This document shows, in pieces, positions 10,995 to 48,084 of a stretch of 64,000 nt of DNA. The stretch comes from Paralcaligenes ureilyticus (GTDB taxonomy: Bacteria > Pseudomonadota > Gammaproteobacteria > Burkholderiales > Burkholderiaceae_B), in assembly GCF_004346225.1 (NCBI RefSeq), contig NZ_SMAJ01000015.1, forward strand, positions 44,223 through 108,222. The letters are read 5' to 3'. The notes under the pieces were generated by a model. It searched no databases and was not told the origin of the DNA. It saw only the letters and a list, made by a program, of their open reading frames with translations. The stretch's first letter is position 1. Each line of letters begins with the position of its first letter. Made by a program: the position numbers and the translations under genes.

Positions 10995-13292
10995 ATGGAC
11001 ACCAACGCCGATCTCACCAAACTGGCCCTCGACTATCACGCCTACCCTACTCCCGGCAAGATTTCGGTTACGCCCACCAAAACCCTGGCCAATCAGGACG
11101 ATCTGTCGCTGGCCTACACGCCCGGCGTAGCCATCGCATGCATGGCCATCCACGCCGACGGCAACCCCGCAGCGGCCAAATACACCTCGCGCTCCAACCT
11201 GGTGGGCGTTGTCACCAACGGGACGGCGGTGCTGGGTCTGGGTAATATCGGCCCGCTGGCGGCCAAACCGGTCATGGAAGGCAAAGCCTGTTTATTTAAA
11301 AAATTTGCCGGCATCGACGTCTTCGATATCGAGCTGGCCGAAACAGACCCCGACAAGCTGGTCGACATCATCGCCGCGCTCGAACCCACACTGGGCGGCA
11401 TCAACCTCGAGGACATCAAGGCGCCGGAATGCTTTTACATCGAGAAAAAGCTGCGCGAGCGCATGAAAATCCCGGTGTTTCACGACGACCAGCACGGCAC
11501 GGCGATTATTTCGTCGGCCGCCATTCTCAACGGCCTGAAAGTGCTCGACAAGAAAATCGGCCAGATCAAGCTGGTCTGCTCGGGCGCCGGCGCCGCGGCC
11601 ATTGCCTGCCTGGATCTGCTGGTTCATCTTGGCGTACAGCGCTCCAACATCTACGTGGCGGACTCGCGCGGCGTCATCTGGGCTGGCCGCGACCCCAGCA
11701 TGGAACCGAACAAAGCCCGCTACGCCCAGGCCACCGATGCACGCACCCTGGCCGATGTGTGTCGCGACGCCGATGTTTTCCTGGGGTGCTCCACGGCCGG
11801 CGTGCTGACGGCCGATATGGTCAAAAGCATGGGTCCGCGGCCGTTTATCCTGGCCCTGGCCAACCCCGAGCCCGAGATACGCCCTGAAATCGCCAAGGCG
11901 GCACGGCCCGACTGCATTATTGCCACAGGCCGCTCCGACTACCCCAATCAGGTCAATAATGTGCTGTGCTTCCCTTTCATTTTCAGGGGTGCCCTGGACG
12001 CGGGCGCCTCGCGCATTACCGACGAGATGAAGCTGGCCTGCGTCAAGGCCATCGCCGAACTGGCCCAGGCCGAACAAAACGATGAAGTGGCCAATGCCTA
12101 CGCCGGCCAGGAACTGTCGTTCGGCCCGGACTACATTATCCCCAAGCCATTCGATCCGCGCCTGATCGTAAAAATTGCGCCTGCTGTGGCGCAGGCGGCG
12201 GCCGACTCGGGCGTGGCGGCGCGCCCCATTGAAGACATGGAGGCATACCGGCAGAAACTCATGAGCCTGGTGTATCACACCGGCCAATTGATGCGGCCGC
12301 TCTTCATGCAGGCCAAAACCGCCCCCAAGCGGGTTCTATATGCCGATGGCGAAGATGAGCGCGTATTGCGGGCGGTACAAACCGTGGTTGATGAAAACAT
12401 TGCCCACCCCACGCTGATAGGCCGTCCCGCTGTCATCAATATGCGGATCGAAAAATTCGGCCTGAGGCTGAAAGCCGGTGACAACATCGAAATCGTCAAT
12501 CCCGAGTCCGATGAGCGGTTCAACGAAACCTGGACAGCCTACTACAAGCTTATGGGCCGCGAAGGAGTGACCCCCGAAATCGCCAAGGCCATGGTCCGCA
12601 AGCACAATTCGCTGATTGGCGTCATGCTGCTTACACGCGGCGACGGCGACGCGCTGTTGTGCGGCATTGCCAGCCGTTTCGACAATCAGCTGAAATACGT
12701 ACAGGAAGTGATCGGCCTGAAGCCCGGCGCCCAAACCTTCGCGGCCATGAATGTATTGATGCTGCCCGAACAGACTCTGTTCATTTGCGACACGCACGTC
12801 AACGAAAACCCCAGCGCAGAACAGATCGCAGACATGACGATACTGGCCGCCGAAGAGATTCTGCGCTTCGGGGTGACGCCCAAGATAGCGCTGCTGTCGC
12901 ATTCAAATTTCGGCAGCCGGCCCACCGAGTCGTCGCGCAAAATGGCGCGGGCGCGGCAATTGATCAACGAACGGGCGCCCCATCTGGAAGTAGACGGAGA
13001 AATGCACGCCGATTCCGCCCTGTCTGAAAAGATCCGCCTGCAGGCCTACCCCGACTCCCGTCTCAAAGGCCCCGCCAATTTGCTGATCATGCCTAACCTG
13101 GATACGGGCAACATCACCTACAACATGCTGAAGATGACGGGCAGCAACGGCGTGGCCATGGGGCCGGTGCTGCTGGGTGCCGCGCGCCCCGTACACGTGC
13201 TGACCACCAGCGCCACCGTGCGCCGCATCGTCAACATGACCGCGCTGGCCGTCGTCGACGCGCAACAAGAGGCCGGCCAGGTTCGTCTGTAA
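10995..13292 (+). CDS. maeB: NADP-dependent malic enzyme with phosphotransacetylase-like C-terminal domain
   Basis: Oxidative decarboxylation of malate to pyruvate, giving NADPH. The ATG at 10995 ([15 protein letters not shown]) follows GGAGTACTCCCATC; an upstream in-frame TTG at 10953 is unlikely. The 765 residues match the hybrid MaeB type: an N-terminal malic enzyme domain of about 425 residues ([42 protein letters not shown](P) fold [15 protein letters not shown]) followed by a phosphate-acetyltransferase-like domain (from about 430, with [11 protein letters not shown]). In known MaeB enzymes the C-terminal domain binds acetyl-CoA as a regulator. It is convergent with gltA; the gap is full of palindromic repeats. 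Confidence 0.95.
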
Positions 13293-13440
13293 AAGCAGCC
13301 CTTGTAGCGGCAGCCCTTGTAGCGGCAGCCCTTGTAGCGGCAGCCCTTGTGGCTGCCATCGGCGCTACAAGGGACGTGGCAGTCGAAGATACAAAAATGG
13401 CACCCACAAGGGGTGCCGCTACACACAAGGGGCGCTACAA
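13289..13440. repeat. Tandem and inverted array of the 26-bp palindromic repeat
   Basis: Directly after the maeB stop, the 15-bp left half GTAGCGGCAGCCCTT occurs at 13304, 13319 and 13334, exactly 15 bp apart, with a truncated unit before them. The last unit continues into a full palindrome ending at 13359. A minus-orientation GGCACCC/GGGTGCC copy follows at 13397-13422, with half copies at 13361-13371 and 13425-13440. The array fills the gap between the convergent maeB and gltA genes. Confidence 0.85.
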
Positions 13441-13451
13441 CCGCCCGCCGA

Positions 13452-14756
13452 TTAACGGCGCTTGGCCACGTCGCGTACCGCCGAGCCGGTGTACAACTGG
13501 CGCGGGCGGCCGATCTTGTAGTCGGGATCGGACAGCATTTCGTTCCATTGGGCAATCCAGCCCACCGTACGCGCCAGAGCAAAAATGGCGGTGAACAACG
13601 AAGTAGGAATACCAATGGCGCGCTGCACGATGCCGGAATAGAAATCGACATTGGGGTACAACTTGCGCTCGACGAAGTAAGGATCTTCAAGGGCGATGCG
13701 TTCAAGTTCCATGGCCAGCTTGAACAGGGGGTCCTTCTCCAGGCCCAGCGCCGCCAACACTTCCTTGCAAGTCTGTTGCATCAGCTTGGCGCGCGGGTCG
13801 TAGTTTTTATAAACGCGATGGCCAAAGCCCATCAAACGCACACCCGACGTTTTGTCCTTGACCTGCTGCATGAACTCGCCCACTTTCTCGACGCCGCCGT
13901 TGGCCTGCAGGTGTTCGAGCATTTGCAGGCAGGCTTCGTTGGCACCGCCGTGGGCGGGGCCCCACAGGCAAGCCACCCCGGCGGCAATCGCGGCAAAAGG
14001 ATTGGTACCCGACGAACCGCACAGCCGCACCGTCGAGGTCGATGCGTTTTGCTCGTGGTCGGCGTGCAGGATGAAAATCCGGTCCAGCGCGCGCTCGACG
14101 ACCTCATTGACCTGATAGTCTTCGCACGGATTGGCGAACATCATGCGTACAAAATTGCCGGTATACGACAGATTGTTCTGCGGATAGATGGAAGGCTGGC
14201 CCTGCGAAAACTTGTACGCCATCGCCACCAGCGTAGGCATTTTGGCGATCAGCCGAATTGCCGATACCTCACGATGACGCGGATTGGTGATGTCGGTGGA
14301 ATCGTGATAGAACGCCGCCATGGCGCCCACCAGACCGGTCAGCACCGCCATGGGGTGCGCATCGCGGCGAAAGCCGCGCAGGAAGAAATGCAATTGTTCA
14401 TGCACCATGGTGTGATGCGTAACCAGCGAGTCGAATTCTGTCTTCTGGGCTGCATTGGGCAAATCGCCGTTCAGGATGAGATAGCTGACATCCATGAAGT
14501 CGCAATTGGTAGCGAGCTGATCGATGGGGTAGCCGCGATACAGCAGTTGCCCCTTGTCGCCGTCAATGAACGTGATGGCCGATTCGCACGCGGCCGTAGC
14601 CATAAAGCCCGGGTCGTAAGTAAACATGCCCGTCTGACCGTACAGCTTGCGGATATCGATAACATCGGGGCCCACAGTACCCTGATAAACGGGGAAATCA
14701 ATCGGCGCACTGCCGTCGGAAAACGATAATGTGGCTTTTTTGTCTGACAGATGCAT
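13452..14756 (-). CDS. gltA: Citrate synthase (type II, hexameric class)
   Basis: Condenses acetyl-CoA and oxaloacetate to citrate. The ATG at 14756 gives 434 residues starting [15 protein letters not shown]. The open frame extends 44 codons upstream into sdhE, but that part is not protein-like. Catalytic regions are [23 protein letters not shown] (His), [14 protein letters not shown] (His) and NVDFYSG (Asp). The long N-terminal beta domain is typical of the NADH-sensitive Gram-negative enzyme. It is the last gene of sdhC-sdhD-sdhA-sdhB-sdhE-gltA and lies 19 bp after sdhE. A separate methylcitrate synthase is encoded at 21420. Confidence 0.97.
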
Positions 14757-26787: not shown

Positions 26788-28791
26788 ATGACCCTGCCTG
26801 ACCAAAACCTGGCGCCATTCGGACGCATCCTGTTCCTGTCCTCGAACCCTGCCAACATCAGGGCTCAACTCGACGGGCGCAATCTGAGCCTGTCCGGCGC
26901 CTGCCCACTGCGCGACGACATCTCCACCGACGAGATCACGCCCATGCCTGTTCTGGCAAACTACGACGAAAGGCTCGGCCGCTACCCCTACACCGGCGTA
27001 CAAGCCAACGGCGAAACACTTATCGCACCCGATGCCGTCATCAATGGACGATTCACCGTGACCGTCGGCGGCAAACGCTATGGCAAGGGATCGTCGCGCG
27101 AACACAGTCCCGTCGCCGAAAAACGGGCCGGCATTCGGCTGGTCATTGCCAAGGGTTTCGAACGACTTTACCGGCAAAACGCCGATAATATAGGCCTCTT
27201 CACGTCCACCGATTTCGGCCTGATTGAACGCATCCAGCGTGGCGAAGCCATTTCGCTGCGGGAGCTGACCAAAGACCGCGATACGCTGGCGGCGACTATC
27301 CTGGCCAGCGGGGGGTTGCTGGGCTTTGGCCGCGAACACATGGCGAGCATCGCCAGCGCCGGCCAAACCACCAGTCGGCAACCGCAAACCCTATTCGAAA
27401 AAATCATTGCCCGCCACTTGTTGGAAGCCGACTGCGCAGGGCGGCGCAACGCACCCGGCGACGGGGCCTTCGTACGAGCCGACTGGCGCTTCATACACGA
27501 GTATTACACCGGCATGTGCGCACACATGCTGCATTCAACTTTCGGCAAGCCTATCACTCTGTATGACAAGGAATCCATTGTTGCATTCGAAGACCATACC
27601 TCCTATGTAGAAACCAGCTTTGCACATCTGTCGCGCGGGCTGGTGCCCAATATCCTGCGCATGTGCCAGGCGCATCGCGATTTTGTCGCCGACTACGGTC
27701 TGCGCTCACACCGCACCTTGACCGAAGCCGAAGCGGCCAGCGACAACGGTGGCAATGCGGCCGGCATATCACACGCCATGATGAGCGAACACTATGCCCT
27801 GCCCGGCCAGGTTGTAGTCGGCACGGATTCTCACACTCCGCATAGCGGGGCGCTGGGCTGCGCGGCATTCGGTGTCGGCACCACCGACATGGCCAATGCC
27901 TTTGTCACCGGCGCAGTCCGCATGACCCTGCCCGAATCGCTGCTGGTCAGGCTCGACGGCAGGCTTCCCCCTGGCGTCACGGCCAAAGATATTGTTCTGG
28001 AGCTACTGGCCCGGCCCGAAATTCGCGACGGCCTGGGCATCGGCAAGGTTTTTGAATTCACCGGACCGTCAGTGGATACTCTCTCGACCGACGAGCGGGC
28101 TACCTTGACCAACATGACGGCGGAGCTTGGCGGCCTGACGGGCATCGTGGCTCCCGACCAGGAAACCGTCCGCTTTCTGCGGGAACGCCGCGGCGTCGAA
28201 TTCGCCCTTGAAGAATGGATGCACAGCGACCCCGATGCTCACTATGCCGCCACCCTGCACATCGACTGCGCGCAGCTCTCGCCCATGGTGGCCCGCCCTG
28301 GCGACCCGGGCCACGGCGTTTCAATCAAGGATTTGCAGGAACGCGTAATAATCGGCATCGCTTACGGAGGATCCTGCACCGCAGGCAAGCGTGCAGACTT
28401 CGATCATTACCATGCCGTGCTGGCCTGGGGGCTGGAGCACGGCCTGCGCGTACCCTCCTCGGTCACGCTTTACCTGCAATACGGCACGACCGCCGTCAGG
28501 GACTACTGCGTGGCGCGCGGCTACGATCGCGTATTCAACGCCGTAGGGGCACACATGCTGGAGCCCTCTTGCGGGGCTTGCGCCAACTGCGGCCCCGGTT
28601 CATCGACCCAAGCGGACCAAGTCACCGTCAGCGCCATCAACCGCAATTTCCCCGGCCGATCCGGCCCCGGAAAAGTCTGGCTGGCCAGCCCGCCTACCGT
28701 CGCGGCCAGCGCCCTGGCGGGAGAATTGATTTCGTTTGAAGAGTTGCAGAGACGAACAGCCGTCATATTTTCGCCACACTCTATTTCTTAA
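26788..28791 (+). CDS. Aconitase-family hydro-lyase with swivel domain first (LeuD-LeuC-type fusion), substrate unknown
   Basis: A 667-residue member of the aconitase superfamily with reversed domain order. The small swivel domain comes first (about 30-175; GDD-like CPLRDDISTDEITPMP; YGKGSSREHSPVAEKRAG with GSSRE at 101-105). The large [4Fe-4S] domain follows from about residue 195 (LFEKIIARHLLEA, GTDSHTPHSGALGC). Cluster ligands are likely Cys530 (GGSCTAGKRADF) plus Cys595 and Cys598 (EPSCGACANCGPGSS); Cys601 is extra. The usual SCTN motif reads SCTA. AcnB shares the domain order but adds a HEAT-like domain; AcnA and LeuC differ in layout. Candidates include hydratases of methylated or unsaturated dicarboxylates. 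It lies 74 bp after the LysR gene. Confidence 0.8.
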   Translation: MTLPDQNLAPFGRILFLSSNPANIRAQLDGRNLSLSGACPLRDDISTDEITPMPVLANYDERLGRYPYTGVQANGETLIAPDAVINGRFTVTVGGKRYGKGSSREHSPVAEKRAGIRLVIAKGFERLYRQNADNIGLFTSTDFGLIERIQRGEAISLRELTKDRDTLAATILASGGLLGFGREHMASIASAGQTTSRQPQTLFEKIIARHLLEADCAGRRNAPGDGAFVRADWRFIHEYYTGMCAHMLHSTFGKPITLYDKESIVAFEDHTSYVETSFAHLSRGLVPNILRMCQAHRDFVADYGLRSHRTLTEAEAASDNGGNAAGISHAMMSEHYALPGQVVVGTDSHTPHSGALGCAAFGVGTTDMANAFVTGAVRMTLPESLLVRLDGRLPPGVTAKDIVLELLARPEIRDGLGIGKVFEFTGPSVDTLSTDERATLTNMTAELGGLTGIVAPDQETVRFLRERRGVEFALEEWMHSDPDAHYAATLHIDCAQLSPMVARPGDPGHGVSIKDLQERVIIGIAYGGSCTAGKRADFDHYHAVLAWGLEHGLRVPSSVTLYLQYGTTAVRDYCVARGYDRVFNAVGAHMLEPSCGACANCGPGSSTQADQVTVSAINRNFPGRSGPGKVWLASPPTVAASALAGELISFEELQRRTAVIFSPHSIS

Positions 28792-38112: not shown

Positions 38113-38274
38113 GACGCCCCAAAGGGTGCCGCTGCGAAAACGTTGCGGTGGATCATGTCAAAAACGTAGCAGCGAATCATGTAGCGGCAGCCCTTGTGGC
38201 TGCCATCGGTGTTCCGTTCTATCAATACCACGACGGTTAGCAACGATTTTGGCAGCCACAAGGGCTGCCGCTAC
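38113..38274. repeat. 26-bp palindromic repeats, one decayed and two inverted full copies
   Basis: A decayed minus copy (38113-38135) is followed by a perfect plus copy (38181-38206) and a perfect minus copy (38250-38274), both of the GGCAGCC/GGCTGCC version. A GTAGC half also occurs at 38166. Confidence 0.8.
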
Positions 38275-38287
38275 ATGAGACGGTCAT

Positions 38288-38395
38288 ACAAACATCAACC
38301 ACACGAGCGGCGTGGGCAGTTGGCAAAGCCAGGATCGGACGAGGCGAGCACCACCCTGCCTGGGCCGTCACCCCCGTGCCCAAAGAACGAAAAAG
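38288..38395 (+). repeat. Large palindromic element, copy P2 (diverged)
   Basis: Starts with ACAAACATCAACCACACGAG (38288-38307), identical to 48185-48204. The core at 38323-38360 aligns without gaps to the 38-base core of P1 (2173-2210), keeping AGCCAGGA and the terminal TGCC. The internal hairpin is reduced to TGGC-AAA-GCCA. Confidence 0.6.
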
Positions 38396-38560: not shown

Positions 38561-39547
38561 ATGAAACTGCTGGCTAAATTAGTGTACGGCCTGACTATTG
38601 CCTTGATTTCATCCACAGCGGCAACCGCGGCAACCACCCGAAACTATCCCGATCACGCCATCAAACTGATCGTTCCGTTTCCCCCCGGAGGTGGTACGGA
38701 TTTGATTGCCCGCGACCTGGCCAAGACGCTCGCACAGCAGAGCGGGTGGACTATCATCGTGGAAAATCGTGCGGGCGCCGGCGGCGATATTGGCATCGCC
38801 GCCGCGGCTAAAGCAAGCCCGGATGGCTACACATGGGTGCTTGGGCAAACCAGCAACCTGGCCATCAACCCCACATTGCACTCGAACCTTCCCTACGACC
38901 CATTCAAGAGCTTCATCCCGATCAGCCTGGTGGCGGATTCTGCCCTAGTCATGGTGGCTCCCGGCAATGCCAAGTACAGCACCGTGCCGGAATTCGTCAA
39001 AGCAGTGAACGAAGGAGCGCCCGACAGCATGAATTTCGGGCTGCCGGGCATAGGCACGGTTGCGCAGCTGACCACTGTCCTGTTCGAACACACCGCCCAG
39101 ATCAAGATCACCAACGTTCCCTATAAAGGCGCATCGGACGGATTGCCAGCGCTGATGGGTAATCAGATCCAGGCCTATATGTCTTCAATTCCCACCCTGC
39201 TGGGCTCGATAAAAGCCGGTCAGATCAAGGCCCTGGGCGTAACGTCGAAAAGCCGCGCCAGCGTGCTGCCCGATGTACCCACAATTGATGAGTCAGGCTA
39301 CAAGGGTTTCAACGCCACGACCTGGTTCGGCATTCTCGTTCCCGCCAATACACCCAAAGACATCACTGTCACCTTGAATGCCGCCATCAACAAAGCGGTC
39401 AAGAATCCCGACTTCATCAAGCGCATGAGCATGCAAGGCGCGACCACCCTGGGCGGAACCTCGGAAGACTTTACAAACAGGCTGCGTACCGATTACGACA
39501 TGTGGGCCGACGTCATCAAGAAAGCACATATCACCCTTGCACATTAA
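38561..39547 (+). CDS. Bug/TctC-family periplasmic solute receptor 2
   Basis: 328-residue periplasmic receptor from ATG 38561 (MKLLAKLVYGL), preceded by AGGAGAAGAC. Signal peptide with cleavage near ATAATT. The family opening YPDHAIKLIVPFPPGGGTDLIARDLA and IIVENRAGAGGDIGIAAAAKASPDGYTW define the fold and ligand pocket. It is the first gene of the 38561-46125 catabolic series, so it probably delivers that pathway's substrate. No TctA/TctB genes accompany it. Confidence 0.92.
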   Translation: MKLLAKLVYGLTIALISSTAATAATTRNYPDHAIKLIVPFPPGGGTDLIARDLAKTLAQQSGWTIIVENRAGAGGDIGIAAAAKASPDGYTWVLGQTSNLAINPTLHSNLPYDPFKSFIPISLVADSALVMVAPGNAKYSTVPEFVKAVNEGAPDSMNFGLPGIGTVAQLTTVLFEHTAQIKITNVPYKGASDGLPALMGNQIQAYMSSIPTLLGSIKAGQIKALGVTSKSRASVLPDVPTIDESGYKGFNATTWFGILVPANTPKDITVTLNAAINKAVKNPDFIKRMSMQGATTLGGTSEDFTNRLRTDYDMWADVIKKAHITLAH

Positions 39548-39572
39548 TTCAAATACCCCGGAAACACGAACC

Positions 39573-40259
39573 ATGAAAACGCTACCCTATATCCGTAAAG
39601 ACATCGAACGCGTCGCCCCTGATCTCGTCAAGAAAGCCAGCCGGTTTCAAGCCGCCATCCTGGCCGATGTGGGAGGCCGCCGTGGCACGCTGGGAGGGCA
39701 AATAAAGCCTTTGCACCCTTCCATGAAAGTGGCCGGTCCCGCATTCACCGTCGAAGTCCGGCCCGGCGACAACCTGATGTTTCATGCTGCCCTGGCGATG
39801 GCCCAGCCCGGCGATGTCATCGTCGTCGAGGGGAAAGGCGATCTTTCGGCCGCATTGTGCGGCACGATTATGGTCACCCAGGCACAGGCCTCTGGCCTGG
39901 CCGGCTTTGTGGTGGACGCGGCAACCCGGGACTCGGAAGAAATCGTTGCGGGCAGCTTCCCGGTATTTTCCGCCGGCACCAATCCCAATGGGCCGACCAA
40001 AGCCCTGGGCGGGCGCGTGAACTGGCCCGTGACACTGGCCGGAACGACAGTCAACCCGGGCGACCTGATTGTCGGCGATGCCGATGGCGTGGTCGTCGTT
40101 CCCCGGGAAAACGTGGAAGAGATCCTGGTCCTAGCCCAGAAAAAAGTCGATGCCGAGGCCACGCGGATTGCCGCCATAAAGAGTGGTGACCTAGGCGCGT
40201 CATGGTTGCAACAAACCTTGGTGCAGGCGGGCGTGATAAAGGAAGGCGAAGTACTATGA
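39573..40259 (+). CDS. RraA-like aldolase (HMG/CHA aldolase family)
   Basis: 228 residues from ATG 39573. The family includes class II aldolases that split 4-hydroxy-4-methyl-2-oxoglutarate or 4-carboxy-4-hydroxy-2-oxoadipate into pyruvate and pyruvate or oxaloacetate, and the RNase E inhibitor RraA. The decisive motif is GLAGFVVDAATRDSEEI, with Arg119-Asp120 that bind substrate and divalent metal in the aldolases. The acidic residue after RD (SEE) favours aldolase over RraA. Its ATGA overlap with the next gene and its catabolic neighbours support an aldolase role. Exact substrate unknown. Confidence 0.85.
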   Translation: MKTLPYIRKDIERVAPDLVKKASRFQAAILADVGGRRGTLGGQIKPLHPSMKVAGPAFTVEVRPGDNLMFHAALAMAQPGDVIVVEGKGDLSAALCGTIMVTQAQASGLAGFVVDAATRDSEEIVAGSFPVFSAGTNPNGPTKALGGRVNWPVTLAGTTVNPGDLIVGDADGVVVVPRENVEEILVLAQKKVDAEATRIAAIKSGDLGASWLQQTLVQAGVIKEGEVL

Positions 40260-41176
40260 GCGTGGCAAAACGCGCAGTTCTGGTGACTGCGGCCGATCTT
40301 GCCCCTGAAGCGCTTCATCTGCTGAAAGATTTCGAGATAGTCTTTACCGGATTGGCGCCCCAGGAAGAAGATATCCTGGCCTTGATAAAACGGCATGACC
40401 CCGCCGGCATCATAGTTCGGTACGGGAAAATCACCTCCGGGATCATTCAAGCCGCACCATCCCTGAAAGTGATTTCCAAGCATGGCAGCGGTATCGATAC
40501 CATTGACGTATCGGCCGCGCAGGCCAAAGGTATTGCCGTGTGCGCCGCCACCGGAGTCAATGCATCCGCTGTGGCGGAACATGCCATTGCCTTGATCCTG
40601 GCCTGCGCAAAATCCGTTACCAGAATGAATCTGCGGATGCATGCCGGATACTGGGACAAAGCCAGCCATAAAAGCATGGAACTGGCTGGACGCACCCTGG
40701 GCCTGATTGGACTGGGTGCCATTGGCGGCCGCGTGGCGCAAATTGCCCATGCCATGGGCATGCACGTCATCGGCCGCGACCCTTACGCAAAAAAAATTCC
40801 CGACTCTGTAAAAGAGGTCAGCCTGGATGAAATCTGGCACGACTCCGATATCATTTCCCTGCATTGCCCATTGACCGATGACAACAAGAATCTGGTGAAT
40901 CAGGACACGCTGGATCGAAGTAAACCCGGCGTCATTATCGTCAACACCGCTCGCGGTGGTCTGATCGATGAAGGCGCTCTCCTGAGCGCGGTACAAAGCG
41001 GCCATGTCTTCGCCGCGGGGCTTGACAGCTTTCAGCAGGAACCTCCTCCGGCCGATCACCCTTTCCTGGGCGAGGAAAATATCCTGTTGAGCCCGCATAT
41101 CGGCGGAGTCACCCGGGACGCCTACGTGAACATGGGGTTGGCCGCCGTACGCAACCTGCTCAGCCATCTGAACTAG
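40256..41176 (+). CDS. D-2-hydroxyacid dehydrogenase (SerA/phosphoglycerate-dehydrogenase-like)
   Basis: 306-residue NAD(P)-dependent oxidoreductase. The nucleotide fold is LGLIGLGAIGGRVAQIAHAMG (GxGxxG at 152-157). Active-site elements are KHGSGIDTID, NTARGGLIDEGAL (Arg), and SPHIGGVT (His), with the Glu in QQEPPPADH. It lacks the C-terminal regulatory domain of true SerA, so it is more likely a catabolic reductase or dehydrogenase. Translation starts at an ATG overlapping the previous stop (ATGA). Confidence 0.88.
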   Translation: MSVAKRAVLVTAADLAPEALHLLKDFEIVFTGLAPQEEDILALIKRHDPAGIIVRYGKITSGIIQAAPSLKVISKHGSGIDTIDVSAAQAKGIAVCAATGVNASAVAEHAIALILACAKSVTRMNLRMHAGYWDKASHKSMELAGRTLGLIGLGAIGGRVAQIAHAMGMHVIGRDPYAKKIPDSVKEVSLDEIWHDSDIISLHCPLTDDNKNLVNQDTLDRSKPGVIIVNTARGGLIDEGALLSAVQSGHVFAAGLDSFQQEPPPADHPFLGEENILLSPHIGGVTRDAYVNMGLAAVRNLLSHLN

Positions 41177-41202
41177 CGCACGACATAACAGAGGAGATAG
41201 CC

Positions 41203-42117
41203 GTGCTTCTACGATCCAATATTGAAATAAAGGACGCCGAGGTCTATAGCTCGATGCCTGAGCATTTCCGGCGAACGGGAGTCGCATCGGAGTGGGCCCA
41301 TGCCAATCGCGGCGGTGTGCCCGTTGACTCATTCCTTGAAGGCCCGGTCTTTGACGCCGACGGGAATCTATACGTGACCGATATTCCATTCGGGCGAATA
41401 TTCAGGATATCACCCAACAAGGAATGGAGCCTGGTCGTCGAATACGATGGCGAGCCTAACGGCATGAAATTCCTGGGCCAGAACGAGCTGATCATCGCCG
41501 ACTATAAAAATGGCTTGATGAAACTGGATCTGCGCAGCAAAGAAGTCGAGCCCTATTTGCTCCGCCGCAATACCGAGCGATTCAAGGGCGTCAACGATCT
41601 GATCTTCGACTCGAAAAAGAATCTGTACTTCACCGACCAGGGCCAATCGGGCATGCACGACCCAAGCGGCCGGGTATATCGGCTTTGCCCCGACGGCCAA
41701 CTCGACCTGCTGATCGGCAATATACCCAGCCCCAATGGAATCGCCCTCAGTCCGGACGAGAAAGTCCTGTACATCGCCGTGACCAGGGGAAATTGCATAT
41801 GGCGCGCGCCATTGATGGCGGACGGCAGCGTTGCCAAGGTTGGCCAATTTTTCACGTCGTACGGGCCAAGCGGGCCGGATGGCCTGGCCGTCGACCAGGA
41901 CGGCCATCTGATCATCGCTAATCCGGGTCTAGGGTATGTGTGGGTTTTGAACGAACTCGCCGAACCCACTGAAGTCTGGCGCAGCCCGCTAGGGAAATCA
42001 TTGACCAATATCGCGTTCGGCGGGTCCGGACGGAAAACGCTGTATTGCACCGAGTCGGTCAGCGGATCGATATTAACCATACCAATGTGGCAACCGGGGT
42101 TGAAACTTGCCGTCTGA
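41203..42117 (+). CDS. SMP-30/gluconolactonase-family lactonase
   Basis: 304-residue beta-propeller hydrolase. It starts at GTG 41203 after GAGGAGATAGCC, an ideal ribosome binding site. Propeller strands repeat with FEGPVFDADGNLYVTD-like elements (LEGPVFDADGNLYVTDIPFG near 47; NDLIFDSKKNLYFTD; PNGIALSPDEKVLYIA; GPDGLAVDQDGHLIIANPG). The glutamate in EGPVF, the Asn of NDLIF and the Asp of GPDGLAVD correspond to the metal ligands of the family. It probably opens a lactone in the local pathway. The next gene's start overlaps its stop. Confidence 0.88.
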   Translation: MLLRSNIEIKDAEVYSSMPEHFRRTGVASEWAHANRGGVPVDSFLEGPVFDADGNLYVTDIPFGRIFRISPNKEWSLVVEYDGEPNGMKFLGQNELIIADYKNGLMKLDLRSKEVEPYLLRRNTERFKGVNDLIFDSKKNLYFTDQGQSGMHDPSGRVYRLCPDGQLDLLIGNIPSPNGIALSPDEKVLYIAVTRGNCIWRAPLMADGSVAKVGQFFTSYGPSGPDGLAVDQDGHLIIANPGLGYVWVLNELAEPTEVWRSPLGKSLTNIAFGGSGRKTLYCTESVSGSILTIPMWQPGLKLAV

Positions 42118-42970
42118 CATTCCCTATACCTCTGGAATCTCTTTACCGAGAACTGCCATCCCGGAAGGCTCGTGCGACTGCCATATGCATCTTTACAGTC
42201 GTCATTATCCTACTGTAGCGGGTGCACGACTGAACCCTCCCGATGCGTCAATAGACGATTACAGGAAACTACAGCATCGCCTTGGAACGGATCGGGCAGT
42301 CATTGTTACTCCATCTACCTATGGTACTAACAATCAGCCCATTCTCGATGGATTGGCGATATTGGGCAATAGCGGGCGCGGTATCGCGGTAGTAGATCCG
42401 TCAATATCAATGAACCACCTGGAGGACCTGCATAACTCAGGAGTCCGTGGGGTTCGCCTCAACCTGTCGCTGGGTGTGACAAGTTCCATCGATATGCTGG
42501 AATTGCTGGCTGAAAAGATCGGGCATTTGGGATGGCATATCCAGATCCTGATGCCATCCCGCCAACTTGTCCAGAACAGACAACGTTTGCGAGCGCTCCG
42601 TGTACCTCTGGTATTTGACCATATGGGGCGAATCGATCCCGACCATCTCAGCGACAACGAAGCTCATAAAGCCATCCTGGACCTGATCGTTGCCGGCAAA
42701 GCCTGGGTAAAGCTGTCTGGCACTTATATTTTGAGCCATCGCGGCCCGCCCTCCTATTCAGACATGAGGGAGTTAGTTCGCACTTATACCCAAATTGGCC
42801 CCGGCCGGCTTGTTTGGGGTAGCGATTGGCCCCATGCCTCGGCAACGGCCGGCTTCCAGCCGATTCCCGACGATGCACACTTGCTTGACCTGATCGCCGA
42901 CTGGGTGAACGACGATCAGATATTTCAACAGATCCTGGTTAAGAACCCCGCGAATCTATACCAATTCTAA
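42107..42970 (+). CDS. Amidohydrolase of the PDC-hydrolase (LigI)-like group 1
   Basis: 287-residue TIM-barrel metal hydrolase of the amidohydrolase-2 family, whose members include 2-pyrone-4,6-dicarboxylate lactonase. The HxH motif is CDCHMHLYSRHYP (His26, His28). Later elements are PLVFDHMGRID (His) and LVWGSDWPHAS (Asp), the last typical of the LigI group. The only suitable start is TTG 42107, overlapping the previous stop by 11 bases, which implies coupling. A lactone or cyclic ester of a carboxylate is the expected substrate. Confidence 0.85.
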   Translation: MPSDIPYTSGISLPRTAIPEGSCDCHMHLYSRHYPTVAGARLNPPDASIDDYRKLQHRLGTDRAVIVTPSTYGTNNQPILDGLAILGNSGRGIAVVDPSISMNHLEDLHNSGVRGVRLNLSLGVTSSIDMLELLAEKIGHLGWHIQILMPSRQLVQNRQRLRALRVPLVFDHMGRIDPDHLSDNEAHKAILDLIVAGKAWVKLSGTYILSHRGPPSYSDMRELVRTYTQIGPGRLVWGSDWPHASATAGFQPIPDDAHLLDLIADWVNDDQIFQQILVKNPANLYQF

Positions 42971-42994
42971 ATATATTTCTTCAAAGGAAATCCG

Positions 42995-43984
42995 ATGAAT
43001 CTATTGGTCAAAAACATTGCGAGAATAATCTTCGTTGGCACCGCCTTTATTTCCGCGACGACAGCTATGGCCGAGAGCACATGGCCCGAAGGCGAGCCCA
43101 TTAACTATGTCGTTCCCTATCCTCCCGGGGGAACAACCGATATTCTGGGTAGAAATATTGCAAAACTGCTGGGCGATAGCCTGGGCGCCAACATTATTGT
43201 TGAAAACAAAGCCGGCGCAACCGGGACTATCGGCTCAGGATATGTAGCTCGTGCGAAACCAGATGGATATACGATGCTGGGTACTTCCATCGGCCCTCAA
43301 TCCATAGTTCCTCATTTTTTTCACAAGCTGCCTTACGACCCCGACAAGGGGTTTGAGCCTGTCATCCTCGTGGGCACAATTCCGCATGTTCTAGTCGTCA
43401 ACGCCAATTCGCCCTATAAAACCTTGGCCCAATTGATTGCGGCAGGCAAAGCCGACCCCAAGGCTTTATCTTATGCGTCTGGCGGGGCGGGTACGGTTCT
43501 CCATATGCAGGGGGAATTGTTAAAGCTGAAAACAGGCATCAGCGCAATTCACATTCCTTATAAAGGAGATACACCGGCCATACAGGGTGTCATGGGCGGG
43601 CAAGTGACATTCATGTTTGCGCCTATAGCTGCCGCATTCCCCCAGATCCAGGCAGGCAGGTTGCGGGCTCTTGCCGTCACCTCGTCGGAAAGGCTGGGCA
43701 ATCTGAAAGACATACCCACCATGAAAGAAGTTGGAGTTTCCGATTTTGTGGTCGAGCAATGGCAAGGTATTTATGTGCCCGCCGGGACTCCTAAAAACAT
43801 CGTCATGCATTTGAATCGCGCAATCAATGACATATTGAAAACTCCAAAGATGATCGATCTTGCCGACACGTTGAAAATTACGCTGGCGGGCGGCACACCA
43901 GAAGATTTAGGCAATCGGCAACGGAACGATTTCGAGCAATGGGGAAAACTCATTGCCGCCGCCAAGATCCATCTCAACAATTAA
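42995..43984 (+). CDS. Bug/TctC-family periplasmic solute receptor 3
   Basis: 329 residues, ATG 42995 after AAAGGAAATCCG. Signal peptide with cleavage near AMAES. The family opening is INYVVPYPPGGTTDILGRNIA, followed by IVENKAGATGTIGSGYVARAKPDGYTM. It lies 24 bp after the amidohydrolase, in the same direction. Sequence differs clearly from receptors 2 and 4, so it may bind a different acid. Confidence 0.92.
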   Translation: MNLLVKNIARIIFVGTAFISATTAMAESTWPEGEPINYVVPYPPGGTTDILGRNIAKLLGDSLGANIIVENKAGATGTIGSGYVARAKPDGYTMLGTSIGPQSIVPHFFHKLPYDPDKGFEPVILVGTIPHVLVVNANSPYKTLAQLIAAGKADPKALSYASGGAGTVLHMQGELLKLKTGISAIHIPYKGDTPAIQGVMGGQVTFMFAPIAAAFPQIQAGRLRALAVTSSERLGNLKDIPTMKEVGVSDFVVEQWQGIYVPAGTPKNIVMHLNRAINDILKTPKMIDLADTLKITLAGGTPEDLGNRQRNDFEQWGKLIAAAKIHLNN

Positions 43985-44065
43985 GCAGCACCCTCAAGCA
44001 ACACAGCTTCGCTGTCGAAAAATGACAGCGATCCACCTCAGAACCAAAACACAGGAGATATGTTT

Positions 44066-45022
44066 GTGAAGAAGTTATTAATCAGCACTCTTTTTGCCGC
44101 CGCAATTCTGCCCTCGCTGGCATCCGCTGCCTACCCGGACAGGGCCATCAGCATTGTCGTACCCTACGCACCGGGCGGAACGGCAGATGCCCTGGCGCGA
44201 GTCATTGCACTGAACCTGGGCAAGAAACTGAACCAAAGCATTGTGGTCGAAAACAAGTCGGGGGCCAGCGGCATGATAGGCGAAGCCTACGTGGCCCGCG
44301 CCAAAGGCGATGGCTACACCCTTCTTTACGACGCAACGCCTCTATCCATTAATCCTTTTCTGCACAAACTACGCTTCAATCCGAAAACGGATCTAGCGCC
44401 TCTGACTCTGGTATCGGTCACCCCCAACATCCTGGTGGTTCCAAAAAGCTCCAAGCTCAACAATCTTGCCGATGTCGTCAAGGCTGCCAAAGCCGAGCCG
44501 GGCCGGCTGACCTTCACCTCGGGCGGTACGGGCACAGTCCAATACATGGCCGGAGAGCTTTTCAATCAGGGTTTTGGCCTCAAGATGCTGCATGTTCCGT
44601 TTAAGAGCGGCGGGCCGGCAATCATGGCTACCGTCGCCGGACAGGTAAATATGATGTTCACCAACATCGCATCCACTCTTGCCTTGGTAAAAAACGGGCA
44701 ATTGAAAGCCTTGGCCATCACATCGCCCAAGCGCAACCCGCTGCTGCCTGATGTACCTACCATTGCCGAATCCGGCATTGATGGCTATAAAGTCTACGAA
44801 TGGAATGGCATGTTCGCCCCCAAGGGAACACCCAAAGAAATTGTCGACTTGCTTCAAAAGAGTATCAAAGATGTGCTCAAACAACCCGATGTCAAGGCGA
44901 AATTCGATTCGCTTGGCGCAGATATCGTTGCCTCCACTCCCGAAGGTTTCAAACAGTATCTGAGTTCGGAATCCGAAAAATGGGGGAAAGTGGTGAAGAA
45001 CGCGGGTATCGTAAAGCAATGA
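44066..45022 (+). CDS. Bug/TctC-family periplasmic solute receptor 4
   Basis: 318 residues if started at GTG 44066, which lies 8 bases after AGGAG and gives a classical signal peptide (MKKLLISTLFAAAILPSLASA). The ATG at 44060 is only two bases from the same ribosome binding site. The mature protein starts AYPDRAISIVVPYAPGGTADALARVIA. It is followed 29 bp later by an intrinsic terminator. The third receptor gene in this one cluster. Confidence 0.9.
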   Translation: MKKLLISTLFAAAILPSLASAAYPDRAISIVVPYAPGGTADALARVIALNLGKKLNQSIVVENKSGASGMIGEAYVARAKGDGYTLLYDATPLSINPFLHKLRFNPKTDLAPLTLVSVTPNILVVPKSSKLNNLADVVKAAKAEPGRLTFTSGGTGTVQYMAGELFNQGFGLKMLHVPFKSGGPAIMATVAGQVNMMFTNIASTLALVKNGQLKALAITSPKRNPLLPDVPTIAESGIDGYKVYEWNGMFAPKGTPKEIVDLLQKSIKDVLKQPDVKAKFDSLGADIVASTPEGFKQYLSSESEKWGKVVKNAGIVKQ

Positions 45023-45051
45023 CGCTTTGTCTCTGAACTTTCGTGAACAGG

Positions 45052-45075
45052 AGCCGGGCCGCAGCCCGGCTTTTT
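45052..45075 (+). terminator. Intrinsic terminator directly before an amidohydrolase start codon
   Basis: Stem AGCCGGGC (45052-45059), loop CGCA, matching arm GCCCGGCT (45064-45071), U tract through 45075. The next gene's ATG is at 45079, three bases after the last T. Confidence 0.85.
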
Positions 45076-45078
45076 ACT

Positions 45079-46125
45079 ATGCAAGAAAACCCAGACATTA
45101 AAATTTCACCGCACGGGCAAATCAGAACCGATTGGCTCGATAAACGCCGCGAAGACATCATCTGGCCAGACCTTCCCATCATCGACCCGCATCACCATCT
45201 TTGGGACAGGCCGGGGTCCAAATACCTATTTGACGAACTGCGCGAAGACATCACTTCCGGCCACAATATCGTCGGCACCCTATTTGTCCAGTGCCGCAGC
45301 ATGTATAAAGAAACTGGAAATGATCATTACAAACCGGTGGGCGAAGTCGAGTTTGCCAACGGCATAGCCGCCCGGTTTGCAAGCGGGCTCTATGGAAAAC
45401 AACGAGGATGCGCCGGCATCGTGGGCTGTGCCGACCTGACGCTGGGCCATGACATACAACCGATCCTCGAGAGTCTGATTGCCGCGGGCGGCATGCGTTT
45501 GAAAGGCATACGCAACTCCACCGCGTGGCATGAGCACGAAGCCGTGCGCAGCAATCCCATATTGCCGCCTAAAAATCTTCTGATTGACCCCCGGTTCTCC
45601 GAAGGGGTGGGTCATCTTGAAAAATATGGACTCAGGCTTGATGTCTGGGCTTATCACACACAATTGCCGCTACTGCACGATTTGGCGAAAGCCCACGCCA
45701 ATGTCCACATTATCATCAATCACCTGGGCGGCCCTTTGGGTGTGGGGCCCTACACAAATCGTAAAAAGGAAGTTTTCCAGACGTGGCAAAGCGAAATGCG
45801 CAGGCTCGCCGGCCTGCCCAATACTTCCGTAAAACTGGGCGGCTTCGGCTTGATGGTCATGGGGCATCAATATCACAAACTGGAGACTCCCCCCTCATCC
45901 GATCTGCTTGCCGCCGAATGGCGCCCCTATGTTGAAACACTGATAGAAATGTTTGGCACGAAGCGATGCATGTACGAAAGCAACTTTCCTGTCGATAAAG
46001 GGATGTTCTCGTATCACGTACTATGGAATGCATTCAAGAAATTGAGTCAGGCTTGTTCACAGGATGAAATTGCCGATTTGTTCCATGAAACCGCCAGACG
46101 CATTTATGATCTGGACCTGTCCTGA
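45079..46125 (+). CDS. Amidohydrolase of the PDC-hydrolase-like group 2
   Basis: 348-residue metal-dependent hydrolase (amidohydrolase-2 family). The metal site begins with LPIIDPHHHLWDRP (His38-His40). Later elements are HIIINHLGGPLGVGPY (His) and CMYESNFPVDKGMFSYHVLW (Asp-containing, VDK). It is larger than the product of 42107 and of a different subgroup. The ATG at 45079 follows a terminator and has no ribosome binding site. An upstream in-frame GTG at 45043 would be translated through the terminator stem and is unlikely, though the AGGAG at 45049 makes the true start uncertain. Confidence 0.85.
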   Translation: MQENPDIKISPHGQIRTDWLDKRREDIIWPDLPIIDPHHHLWDRPGSKYLFDELREDITSGHNIVGTLFVQCRSMYKETGNDHYKPVGEVEFANGIAARFASGLYGKQRGCAGIVGCADLTLGHDIQPILESLIAAGGMRLKGIRNSTAWHEHEAVRSNPILPPKNLLIDPRFSEGVGHLEKYGLRLDVWAYHTQLPLLHDLAKAHANVHIIINHLGGPLGVGPYTNRKKEVFQTWQSEMRRLAGLPNTSVKLGGFGLMVMGHQYHKLETPPSSDLLAAEWRPYVETLIEMFGTKRCMYESNFPVDKGMFSYHVLWNAFKKLSQACSQDEIADLFHETARRIYDLDLS

Positions 46126-46206: not shown

Positions 46207-47175
46207 TCAGTTTTTAAGCCCAAGTCTCTTTGCCAATTCAGTATAGGTCGCGACTTCGGTTTTTATTTCAGAAGCGAAATCAAATCCGCACGTTGCGTCG
46301 GGCTCGAGGCCAAGGGCTTTCAGCCTTTTCTGCGCATCTGGATCTGCCTGAAACGCTTTGACGTAGTCCGTCAGAACCGAGAGGGCATTTTGCGGTGTCC
46401 CGACAGGAGCCAGTAAGCCATACCATGCGTCAGCAGAATAGCCTTTTATTCCTTCCTCCTCAAACGTCGGAACCTTGGGCAAGGACTGTAAGCGTCGGCT
46501 GGAGGCAACCGCCAGTATTTTTATCCTGCCGGAACCAACCTGCGAAAGCACGGAAGCCAGTGTTGCGAACGACATGTCCACTTGCCCGCCCATCAAGGCA
46601 TTGATCGCAGGAGCGGCACCGTTGTAGGGAATGTGATTGAAATGAACACCAGCCATTTTTTCGAACAAAGCCGTAGCAAAGTCCCCGGAACTTCCGACAC
46701 CCGCCGACGCGGCCGAGAACTTTCCGGGACTCTTTCTTACGTGCTCCAGAAATTCATTCAGACTGGCAACGGGAAACGACGGCCCCACCACCAGCACCGT
46801 TGGGCTTTTGGCAAAAGTGCAAATCGGCGTAAAGGATTTTTCGACATCGAACTTTATTCGACTCCCATACAAGGCCGGAATCATCGTATAGTTGGTGGCC
46901 GCTCCTAACAAGGTATAGCCGTCGGGCCTTGCCTGGCTAACATATTGGGTGGCAATTATCGAGTTTGCGCCGGGTTTATTTTCAACGATAAAGTTCTTGC
47001 CGGTTCGGGCACCTGCAAAATTCGCAAAAGCGCGGATCACTACATCGGTGGGACCTCCGGCGCTGAATCCAACCACAATATTTACCGGCTTTGCGGGATA
47101 TGTCGCCGCTTTGGCGTGTGTGACGACAGCCATGGTCAGTATCGACAGCGCCAAGCCATAAATTATTTTCTTCAT
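46207..47175 (-). CDS. Bug/TctC-family periplasmic solute receptor 5
   Basis: 322 residues from ATG 47175 (MKKIIYGLALSIL) with a signal peptide cleaved near AKAAT. The family segments are VNIVVGFSAGGPTDVVIRAFA and IVENKPGANSIIATQYVSQARPDGYTLL. It is divergent from the IclR regulator, which probably controls it. It converges on the upstream amidohydrolase gene with an 81-bp gap that contains a weak hairpin (GAAGGTTCCGGGAATCTTC). A single cysteine near the C-terminus (ATCGFDF) is unusual. Confidence 0.9.
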   Translation of the reverse strand: MKKIIYGLALSILTMAVVTHAKAATYPAKPVNIVVGFSAGGPTDVVIRAFANFAGARTGKNFIVENKPGANSIIATQYVSQARPDGYTLLGAATNYTMIPALYGSRIKFDVEKSFTPICTFAKSPTVLVVGPSFPVASLNEFLEHVRKSPGKFSAASAGVGSSGDFATALFEKMAGVHFNHIPYNGAAPAINALMGGQVDMSFATLASVLSQVGSGRIKILAVASSRRLQSLPKVPTFEEEGIKGYSADAWYGLLAPVGTPQNALSVLTDYVKAFQADPDAQKRLKALGLEPDATCGFDFASEIKTEVATYTELAKRLGLKN

Positions 47176-47285: not shown

Positions 47286-47302
47286 GTTTCTTCTGATGAA
47301 AT
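47286..47302 (+). promoter_or_regulatory. Candidate IclR operator overlapping its own start codon
   Basis: GTTTCTTCTGATGAAAT matches the palindrome at 38450-38466 at 14 of 17 positions and spans the IclR ATG at 47296. Such a position would allow autorepression. Confidence 0.35.
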
Positions 47303-48084
47303 CCAATGTGTTAAACAAAACGGAGCCCGCCTTGAAATCCACGCCTAACCACAAGCCGGATGCAACGGGTGTCATTGCTGTCACAAGAGCCATCAGCCTG
47401 CTTGAGTCATTTGGCGTTCAAGACGAATACCTGTCGTTGGCCGAACTAAGCCGACGCAGTGGATTACACAAAACCACCGTGCTGCGTATAGCGCGAACAC
47501 TCGCCACCCATCAGTATCTGGTCTACAGAGACGATGGCGCATGGCGCCTGGGGCCGGCGGCGGGCTGGCTAGGCGCCCGATACCAGGCCTCTTTCGATGT
47601 CACGGCATCGGTTGAGCCCGTGCTGCAGGAGCTGTCGAAACTGTCCGGCGAGAGCTCGACTTTCTTTGTACGCGAAGGCAATACACGAACCTGTTTGTAT
47701 CGGGTGGAAGGACCGCAGGCAATCCGCTTCCATATTCGGGTAGGGCAAGTCCTGCCTCTGGAGAAAGGCTCGCCTGGCAAGGTGATACTTGCCTTTACCG
47801 GCACTCCAGGATCCGAATTCGATGGCATCAGGCGCAAGGGCTATTACATTTCCATAGGAGAACGCGACGCCGATGTAGCCAGCGTTTCAGCCCCCGTATA
47901 TGGGGTGAACTGGCAACTGCTCGGCGCCATCAGCATCTCCGGCCCGGCTAGCCGATTGACAAAAAAGAAACTCGAAGCGTTTGTAGAAACGCTTGTCGGC
48001 AAAGCCAATCAATTATCCATCACTCTAGGGGGAAAAAGAGGAGCCAACTTGTCAGGGCTGAAGGAAAGCCGCTGGCATCCTTGA
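47296..48084 (+). CDS. IclR-family transcriptional regulator
   Basis: 262-residue IclR regulator: N-terminal winged helix (AVTRAISLLESFGVQDEYLSLAELSRRSGLHKTTVLRIARTLA, about 30-70) and a C-terminal GAF-like effector domain (about 95-255; VGQVLPLEKGSPGKVILAF, VYGVNWQLLGAISISGP). IclR proteins often control aromatic-acid and organic-acid pathways. It is divergent from Bug receptor 5 and adjacent to the catabolic series, its most likely target. Confidence 0.9.
   Translation: MKSNVLNKTEPALKSTPNHKPDATGVIAVTRAISLLESFGVQDEYLSLAELSRRSGLHKTTVLRIARTLATHQYLVYRDDGAWRLGPAAGWLGARYQASFDVTASVEPVLQELSKLSGESSTFFVREGNTRTCLYRVEGPQAIRFHIRVGQVLPLEKGSPGKVILAFTGTPGSEFDGIRRKGYYISIGERDADVASVSAPVYGVNWQLLGAISISGPASRLTKKKLEAFVETLVGKANQLSITLGGKRGANLSGLKESRWHP

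Follow-up and report, generated by a model that had tools for sequence, protein, structure and literature searches.

A conserved gene module, more than a chance island, was identified in a 64,000-nucleotide stretch of the Paralcaligenes ureilyticus genome (contig NZ_SMAJ01000015.1, positions 44,223 to 108,222; hereafter the window, to which coordinates refer unless another locus is named). Its core consists of genes encoding an IclR-family regulator, a Bug-type solute-binding protein of the tripartite tricarboxylate transporter (TTT) class, an RraA-type protein and a D-2-hydroxyacid dehydrogenase (DHD), while the lactonase-type enzymes and transporters that accompany this core are swappable. 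In our estimate the chances are about even that the module imports a small 2-hydroxy acid, oxidises it with NAD to a 2-oxo acid and then splits the latter, by a predicted retro-aldol reaction, into pyruvate and a second small acid.

Conserved linkage of rraA and dhd

To describe the distribution of the module, 268 genomes of the family were searched separately with RraA, DHD and SMP-30. The DHD search returned 62 matches at E ≤1e-80, 60 of them with at least 58% identity, in 59 genomes. In 59 of these 60 cases, dhd is directly preceded by rraA in the same orientation; the one orthologue that lacks an upstream rraA begins at base 1 of its contig. Seen from RraA, 73 matches were obtained at 1e-70, with dhd downstream in 59. 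SMP-30 orthologues (at least 60% identity; next matches ≤55%) were found in 65 family genomes, 41 of which also encode DHD (Fisher p 8e-18 for co-occurrence, uncorrected for shared ancestry), and 18 family genomes encode DHD without an orthologous SMP-30.

The pairing extends beyond the family. In an order-level sample of 399 genomes, RraA matches at 1e-55 were present in 25, and 20 stretches were examined (19 of them drawn from other families, the last spanning an RraA paralogue of the P. ureilyticus genome itself; some are short contigs), of which 14 showed dhd immediately after rraA. The core was observed on named plasmid records of Variovorax (loci L172 and L184), a Comamonadaceae isolate (L178) and Paraburkholderia largidicola (L173), and on further plasmid records of Caballeronia (L174, L176), Cupriavidus (L169 of C. 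metallidurans CH34, L175, L177) and Pantoea (L170, L171). The module is also present in Klebsiella aerogenes (L180; LR134125.1, 12747-14694), with IclR and DHD each matching in two pieces, as do RraA in L177 and DHD in L202 (G241), and looser or rearranged forms were found in Rhizobium binae (L179) and Alloyangia pacifica (L182). In the nearest relative, L031, the module genes are 86-98% identical.

Gene content of the locus

An earlier note on this DNA had described an island at 38561..46125; the genes were all present there as described and gave clear Pfam matches, but its boundary was drawn too early, as the gene set continues to 48084 with a minus-strand bug4 followed by iclR:

38561..39547, plus strand: bug1, TTT solute-binding protein, first gene of the Bug-RraA-DHD core (PF03401, 207.5 bits)
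39573..40259, plus strand: rraA, RraA-like protein resembling 4-hydroxy-4-methyl-2-oxoglutarate/4-carboxy-4-hydroxy-2-oxoadipate (HMG/CHA) aldolase, predicted to act as a class II pyruvate aldolase or as a decarboxylase of the oxaloacetate type (PF03737, 158.8 bits)
40256..41176, plus strand: dhd, NAD-type D-2-hydroxyacid dehydrogenase, phosphoglycerate dehydrogenase-like (PF02826, 194.1 bits; PF00389)
41203..42117, plus strand: smp, SMP-30/gluconolactonase-family protein, predicted lactonase (PF08450, 141.4 bits)
42107..42970, plus strand: ah1, COG3618-type amidohydrolase (AH1), like LigI and D-galactarolactone isomerase, predicted lactone hydrolase (PF04909)
42995..43984, plus strand: bug2, TTT solute-binding protein (PF03401, 229.6 bits)
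44060..45022, plus strand: bug3, TTT solute-binding protein (PF03401, 224.4 bits)
45079..46125, plus strand: ah2, second COG3618-type amidohydrolase (AH2), fuconolactonase-like fold (PF04909; an alternative GTG start at 45043 gives a longer frame)
46207..47175, minus strand: bug4, TTT solute-binding protein, divergent from iclR (PF03401, above cut-off)
47296..48084, plus strand: iclR, IclR-family regulator, linked to the core (PF01614, PF09339)

The genes rraA and dhd share the four bases ATGA (40256-40259), and smp and ah1 have 11 bases in common (42107-42117). Both overlaps had been noted before, and the second is real provided that ah1 starts at its TTG codon, an early start that is supported by the conservation of Gly10 at ≥90% in alignment A2. 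Intergenic gaps of 24-26 bases separate bug1 from rraA, dhd from smp and ah1 from bug2. In L031, L079 and L080, bug4 and iclR are retained with the cluster, the place and orientation of bug4 beside iclR being unchanged. The three receptor genes previously recognised as embedded in the island correspond to bug1, bug2 and bug3, and all four Bug genes of the module score above the PF03401 cut-off (207-230 bits vs 27). The whole genome contains 58 TctC/Bug-type matches vs three TctA matches, so that TctA partners would have to be shared. The combination of lactone opening, a redox step and an aldolase that had been proposed for the island is borne out at the level of families, as a catabolic-looking unit of predicted lactonase-type enzymes, a dehydrogenase, a member of a pyruvate-type aldolase family and carboxylate receptors.

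Sigma-70-like promoter sites showed no excess (six vs a shuffle mean of 7.7), and terminator-like sites were above shuffles (17 vs a mean of 11.4, sd 3.0). A GC-rich, terminator-like hairpin (45056-45072) with a T run lies 3' of bug3, between an AGGAG and the ah2 ATG (45048-45081). A palindrome resembling repetitive extragenic palindromic (REP) elements, TGTAGCGGCAGCCCTTGTGGCTGCC, occurs 974 times within three mismatches in the 4.37-Mb genome (~1 per 4.5 kb; reversed control 0), with 13 matches in the window, including at 38166-38289; no Y1_Tnp (RAYT-type) transposase was found in the genome at E 0.001.

The suggestion that the island feeds tricarboxylic acid (TCA) cycle genes next door did not hold, as matches to acnA, earP and efp were found in none of 57 relatives' loci, including L031, for which ~6 kb upstream was covered. 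Across 108 relatives' loci an acnA-like gene was seen in one only (L169, ~5 kb away). A functional tie to the upstream TCA/methylcitrate genes (mdh, prpB, prpC, acnB and acnA) was rejected, as this neighbourhood is not conserved. Upstream of acnB and acnA, an aconitase/isopropylmalate-dehydratase-like open reading frame of 667 aa (26788-28791) was observed, whose matches start near residue 200 and do not reach the curated cut-off of any of the six models listed.

Core and exchangeable components

In total, 94 loci (the window, 57 and a further 36) were compared; they had been selected for resemblance to one of four proteins (AH1, SMP-30, RraA or AH2), which biases the fractions given here. RraA was present at ≥38% identity in 72 of the 94 loci (71 different), with dhd adjacent in 62 of the 71. 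Among these 62 unique rraA-dhd loci, an IclR relative (≥33% identity) was found in 54 and a Bug gene in 56, while SMP-30 was found in 51, AH1 in 33, a cyclase-family gene in 22 and AH2 in 11; none of the last four was present in 11 loci.

A further 15 loci were added because SMP-30 or DHD was absent from the first searches, giving 109 loci, 108 of them from relatives. Twelve of the 15 (L189-L200) represent a minimal form: IclR, bug1, rraA and dhd are all present, a bug1 relative (45-59% identity) lies immediately 5' of rraA in every case, and no SMP-30, AH1, AH2 or cyclase match was found within these 12 stretches. As such loci have no lactonase-type genes, oxidation and RraA action would be enough for a function. 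L201 contains rraA without DHD, and in L203 RraA is located near an alpha-hydroxy-acid oxidase, together with a distant dehydrogenase.

Around the unchanged core, transporter types varied from Bug only to a major facilitator superfamily (MFS) gene with a porin (L173, L174, L176), MFS (L171), TctCBA (L182), and ATP-binding cassette (ABC) genes with Tct (L179). A bug2-type gene was situated directly 3' of ah1 in 24 of the 26 ah1-bearing loci in the set of 57. A flavin mononucleotide (FMN)-dependent alpha-hydroxy-acid oxidase was present within ~12 kb of rraA in L109, L164 (upstream), L174 (PF01070), L179, L197 and L203. In all 22 loci having one, the cyclase-family gene lies 18-123 bases 3' of dhd on the same strand; the one scanned (L082:10465-11529, 354 aa) matched PF04199 and had no NCBIfam match.

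RraA-type protein and dehydrogenase

The best NCBIfam model for RraA is PRK06201, a 'hypothetical protein' (220.3 bits vs a cut-off of 231). Alignment with the HMG/CHA aldolase of PDB entry 3NOJ revealed that the equivalents of R40, R123, D124, K147 and E199 are kept in 71 of 71 relatives, including the catalytic Arg123 and the metal ligands Asp124 and Glu199, which correspond to R119, D120 and E195 here. HMG/CHA aldolases split 4-hydroxy-2-oxo acids, yielding pyruvate (PMC5065237). Seven RraA-like proteins are encoded in the genome, the closest paralogue (53% identity) being located elsewhere, beside a PIG-L gene (L168). A GalB-type hydratase was suspected in this PIG-L gene, for which BshB1 was the sole NCBIfam match, at a score below cut-off. 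Database names of RraA relatives include RNase E regulator, methyltransferase and diguanylate cyclase. The 21 RraA sequences in which residue 98 is not Thr comprise the own-genome paralogue and sequences from genomes or plasmids outside the family of the window.

In DHD, the triad R233, E262 and H281 and the Rossmann residues G152, G154 and G157 are invariant in 71 relatives, as is Asp175 (71/71), a residue that suggests the use of NAD rather than NADPH. The score against 3-phosphoglycerate dehydrogenase (TIGR01327) was 261.1 bits vs a cut-off of 454, the match stopping at model position 299 of 525, short of the regulatory C-terminal domain. Other NCBIfam matches include glyoxylate and hydroxypyruvate reductases, every one below cut-off, and relatives in the PDB include McyI, which acts on a malate-type substrate.

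Lactonase-type enzymes

SMP-30 residues E46, N131, N178 and D226, which correspond to the metal-binding Glu, Asn, Asn and Asp of SMP-30 lactonases, are kept in 68 of 68 relatives; the family is not purely one of lactonases, as it includes DFPase. SMP-30 was dropped as an anchor of the system, its orthologues also occurring near selD or in the company of genes of the yncE, deacetylase and hydroxylase types, there with tcuAB in the opposite orientation. In genus g27, 11 loci among L086-L113 carry SMP-30 orthologues (65-75%) in another recurring gene row, and in the locus scanned (L094:9303-16245) the neighbours of SMP-30 are a YncE-like propeller protein, a polysaccharide deacetylase and an OlsE-like hydroxylase; tcuAB runs on the opposite strand.

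AH1 and AH2, whose folds were assigned from structural models, differ in kind and are optional to the module. The earlier description of two LigI-like hydrolases is apt for AH1, whereas AH2 is nearer to the L-fuconolactonase type of COG3618. AH1 residues H26, H28, H172 and D240 correspond to the catalytic His, His, His and Asp248 of LigI in 30 of 30 relatives (LigI D248 mutants are named in PDB entry titles), and LigI R124 is retained as R117 in the alignment. However, the positions of LigI R130 and R217, residues which hold the carboxylates of 2-pyrone-4,6-dicarboxylate (PDC), are occupied by Gly123 in 30 of 30 AH1 relatives and by residue 208, which is Ile in 19, Leu in 10 and Met in one of the 30. 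AH1 is in this respect unlike LigI, 4mup (D-galactarolactone isomerase) and 4-sulfomuconolactone hydrolase (SlmHylase, NF042924), scoring 160.3 bits vs a cut-off of 500 against the last of these.

In a structural search with the predicted AH2 model, COG3618 enzymes ranked first. AH2 nonetheless differs from the L-fucono-1,5-lactonase type (4dlf/4do7) in its identity of 24%, in having Asn302 for Asp, and in a score of 67.8 bits vs a cut-off of 400 (NF052480). A LigJ-type hydratase reading of AH2 is considered less probable, as LigJ was not among the fold matches listed. No comparable module surrounds the AH2 relatives of L181 and L183.

Proposed function and alternative explanations

The route that we propose would begin with uptake of a 2-hydroxy acid or its lactone form by a Bug receptor, followed by NAD-dependent oxidation by DHD to a 2-oxo acid, which RraA would likely cleave by a retro-aldol reaction to pyruvate and a second small acid. 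In expanded loci, SMP-30, AH1 and AH2 may open lactones of the same or closely related substrates, in which case several entry compounds would converge on a single oxidation and a single cleavage. An FMN oxidase, present in six of 109 loci, might act on the other 2-hydroxy epimer. The simplest two-step chemistry joining DHD and RraA involves a 2-hydroxy acid with a suitable C4 group, i.e. a 4-hydroxy group for an aldol reaction or a carboxylate for decarboxylation. A dehydratase-free route can be envisaged, to which we assign a low probability: exchangeable lactonases would open both gamma-lactones of 2,4-dihydroxy dicarboxylates such as 2,4-dihydroxyglutarate, DHD (in some strains with the FMN oxidase for the other epimer) would make a 4-hydroxy-2-oxo acid, and a new RraA subfamily would release pyruvate and glyoxylate or a second oxo acid. 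This candidate substrate is a metabolite known from nature in diastereomeric forms (PMC13117884), and it is also named in PMC11117870.

Several points weigh against this interpretation. The enzyme activities of all module proteins are predictions, as are the direction of the DHD reaction, aldol cleavage in preference to decarboxylation, the lactone specificity and the regulation. The substrate class that fits best, 2,4-dihydroxy dicarboxylates (2,4-dihydroxyglutarate or 4-substituted relatives) and their gamma-lactones, comes from a chemical argument, namely that ring closure of these compounds can take either of two directions, for which several lactonases would be needed, and is doubtful. 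Downstream dhd is missing for 14 of the 73 family RraA matches, and SMP-30 is not dedicated to the module, because 15 loci from two genera carry an orthologue of it among unrelated neighbours, with neither rraA nor dhd. The hydrolase activity of AH2 is uncertain, because Asn302 replaces the usual beta-8 Asp in 15 of 15 relatives and in all 38 rows of alignment A3. The four Bug proteins need not share one ligand, the FMN oxidase is restricted to the six loci named above, and L164 encodes an IlvD/EDD-type dehydratase (12002-13708; PRK06131, 892.5 vs a cut-off of 539) on the opposite strand, ~1 kb beyond dhd. RraA fits an unnamed subfamily (PRK06201) best, falling just under the cut-off for CHA aldolase (NF006731, 173.6 vs 179 bits) and far under that of TIGR02798 (157.8 vs 304.5 bits), and the position of 3NOJ Asp102 (RraA residue 98) is Thr here, with Thr in 50, Glu in 15 and Asp in one of 71 sequences. 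Furthermore, HMG/CHA aldolases also decarboxylate oxaloacetate via the same enolate (PMC5065237).

This dual activity would also suit a decarboxylation, in which a substituted acid resembling D-malate is oxidised by DHD, and the resulting 2-oxo acid of the oxaloacetate type loses CO2 through RraA without an aldol cut. The occurrence of McyI among the relatives of DHD points in the same direction; however, such an enzyme is not needed for plain oxaloacetate, and multiple lactonase-type enzymes would suit hydroxylated, lactone-forming acids better than malates; we consider this explanation unlikely but not far-fetched. The module could also run in the reverse direction, as a detoxification or overflow unit in which DHD reduces a toxic 2-oxo acid and RraA cleaves or forms a 4-hydroxy-2-oxo acid. 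D-2-hydroxyacid dehydrogenases are frequently reductases, and the sub-cut-off glyoxylate/hydroxypyruvate reductase matches are consistent with this, whereas uptake and breakdown are indicated by the linked receptors, by lactonase-type enzymes and by transport genes of the MFS, porin or ABC kind, and Asp175 suggests NAD rather than NADPH; we regard this direction as quite unlikely.

The resemblance of AH1 to D-galactarolactone isomerase and of SMP-30 to gluconolactonase would suit a sugar-acid lactone route feeding aldarate or aldonate breakdown, yet no sugar-acid dehydratase was found in the module of the window, nor among the extra gene clusters common to at least four of 38 loci, and AH1 is one of several optional enzymes, making such a route very unlikely. 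The earlier note had seen a likeness to the PDC branch of protocatechuate 4,5-cleavage, and the joint presence of a LigI-like AH1 and a LigK-like RraA in one cluster would be expected of such a branch, or of gallate breakdown via PDC. This reading was rejected as highly improbable, because AH1 lacks equivalents of LigI R130 and R217 and the ring-cleavage enzyme is missing: no LigB-type ring-cleavage dioxygenase (LigAB/PmdAB, gallate dioxygenase) was found in the draft genome (99.28% complete), which contains only two PF02900 matches, and for both of these the sole NCBIfam match at 1e-10 was 4,5-DOPA-extradiol-dioxygenase, under its cut-off (168.2 and 203.4 vs 233). The location of the nearest RraA paralogue outside the cluster likewise argues against it.

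Comparison with known systems

Lactone-to-pyruvate routes of sugar-acid breakdown employ a lactonase, a dehydratase and an aldolase; they share a lactonase and a pyruvate-forming aldolase with the module proposed here, which has a D-2-hydroxyacid dehydrogenase where these routes have a dehydratase. The L-ascorbate pathway of Cupriavidus necator H16 reportedly pairs gluconolactonase-family and amidohydrolase-family lactone openers, as does the module, but has a PdxA-type decarboxylase and neither RraA nor DHD. In comparison with HMG/CHA aldolases of the LigK/ProA/GalC type, the module RraA belongs to the same fold family and has the invariant active-site residues described above, but it mostly carries Thr or Glu at the Asp102 position, lies below the NF006731 and TIGR02798 cut-offs and is partnered by DHD, not by a hydratase. 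The breakdown of riboflavin (lumichrome), as described in PMC12746152, is similar in that the lactonase LumW opens a lactone and LumX later performs a retro-aldol cut to pyruvate; there, however, the aldolase substrate is made by the hydratase LumY, not by a dehydrogenase, and the likeness is one of reaction.

The earlier description of the island as uncharacterised stands: no published pathway with this gene combination was found in the open-access literature searched, and a passage of an Advenella proteomics study (PMC5373536) does not name the module genes by the terms tried. The protein families are all known; their combination, with a dehydrogenase in the place of a dehydratase, is apparently undescribed. 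The rraA-dhd pairing gives the poorly understood RraA-like proteins a concrete metabolic partner, and the minimal form narrows the problem to a pair of enzymes with a single receptor. The swappable lactonase-type enzymes and transporters illustrate how a pathway core can be re-equipped with new entry points.

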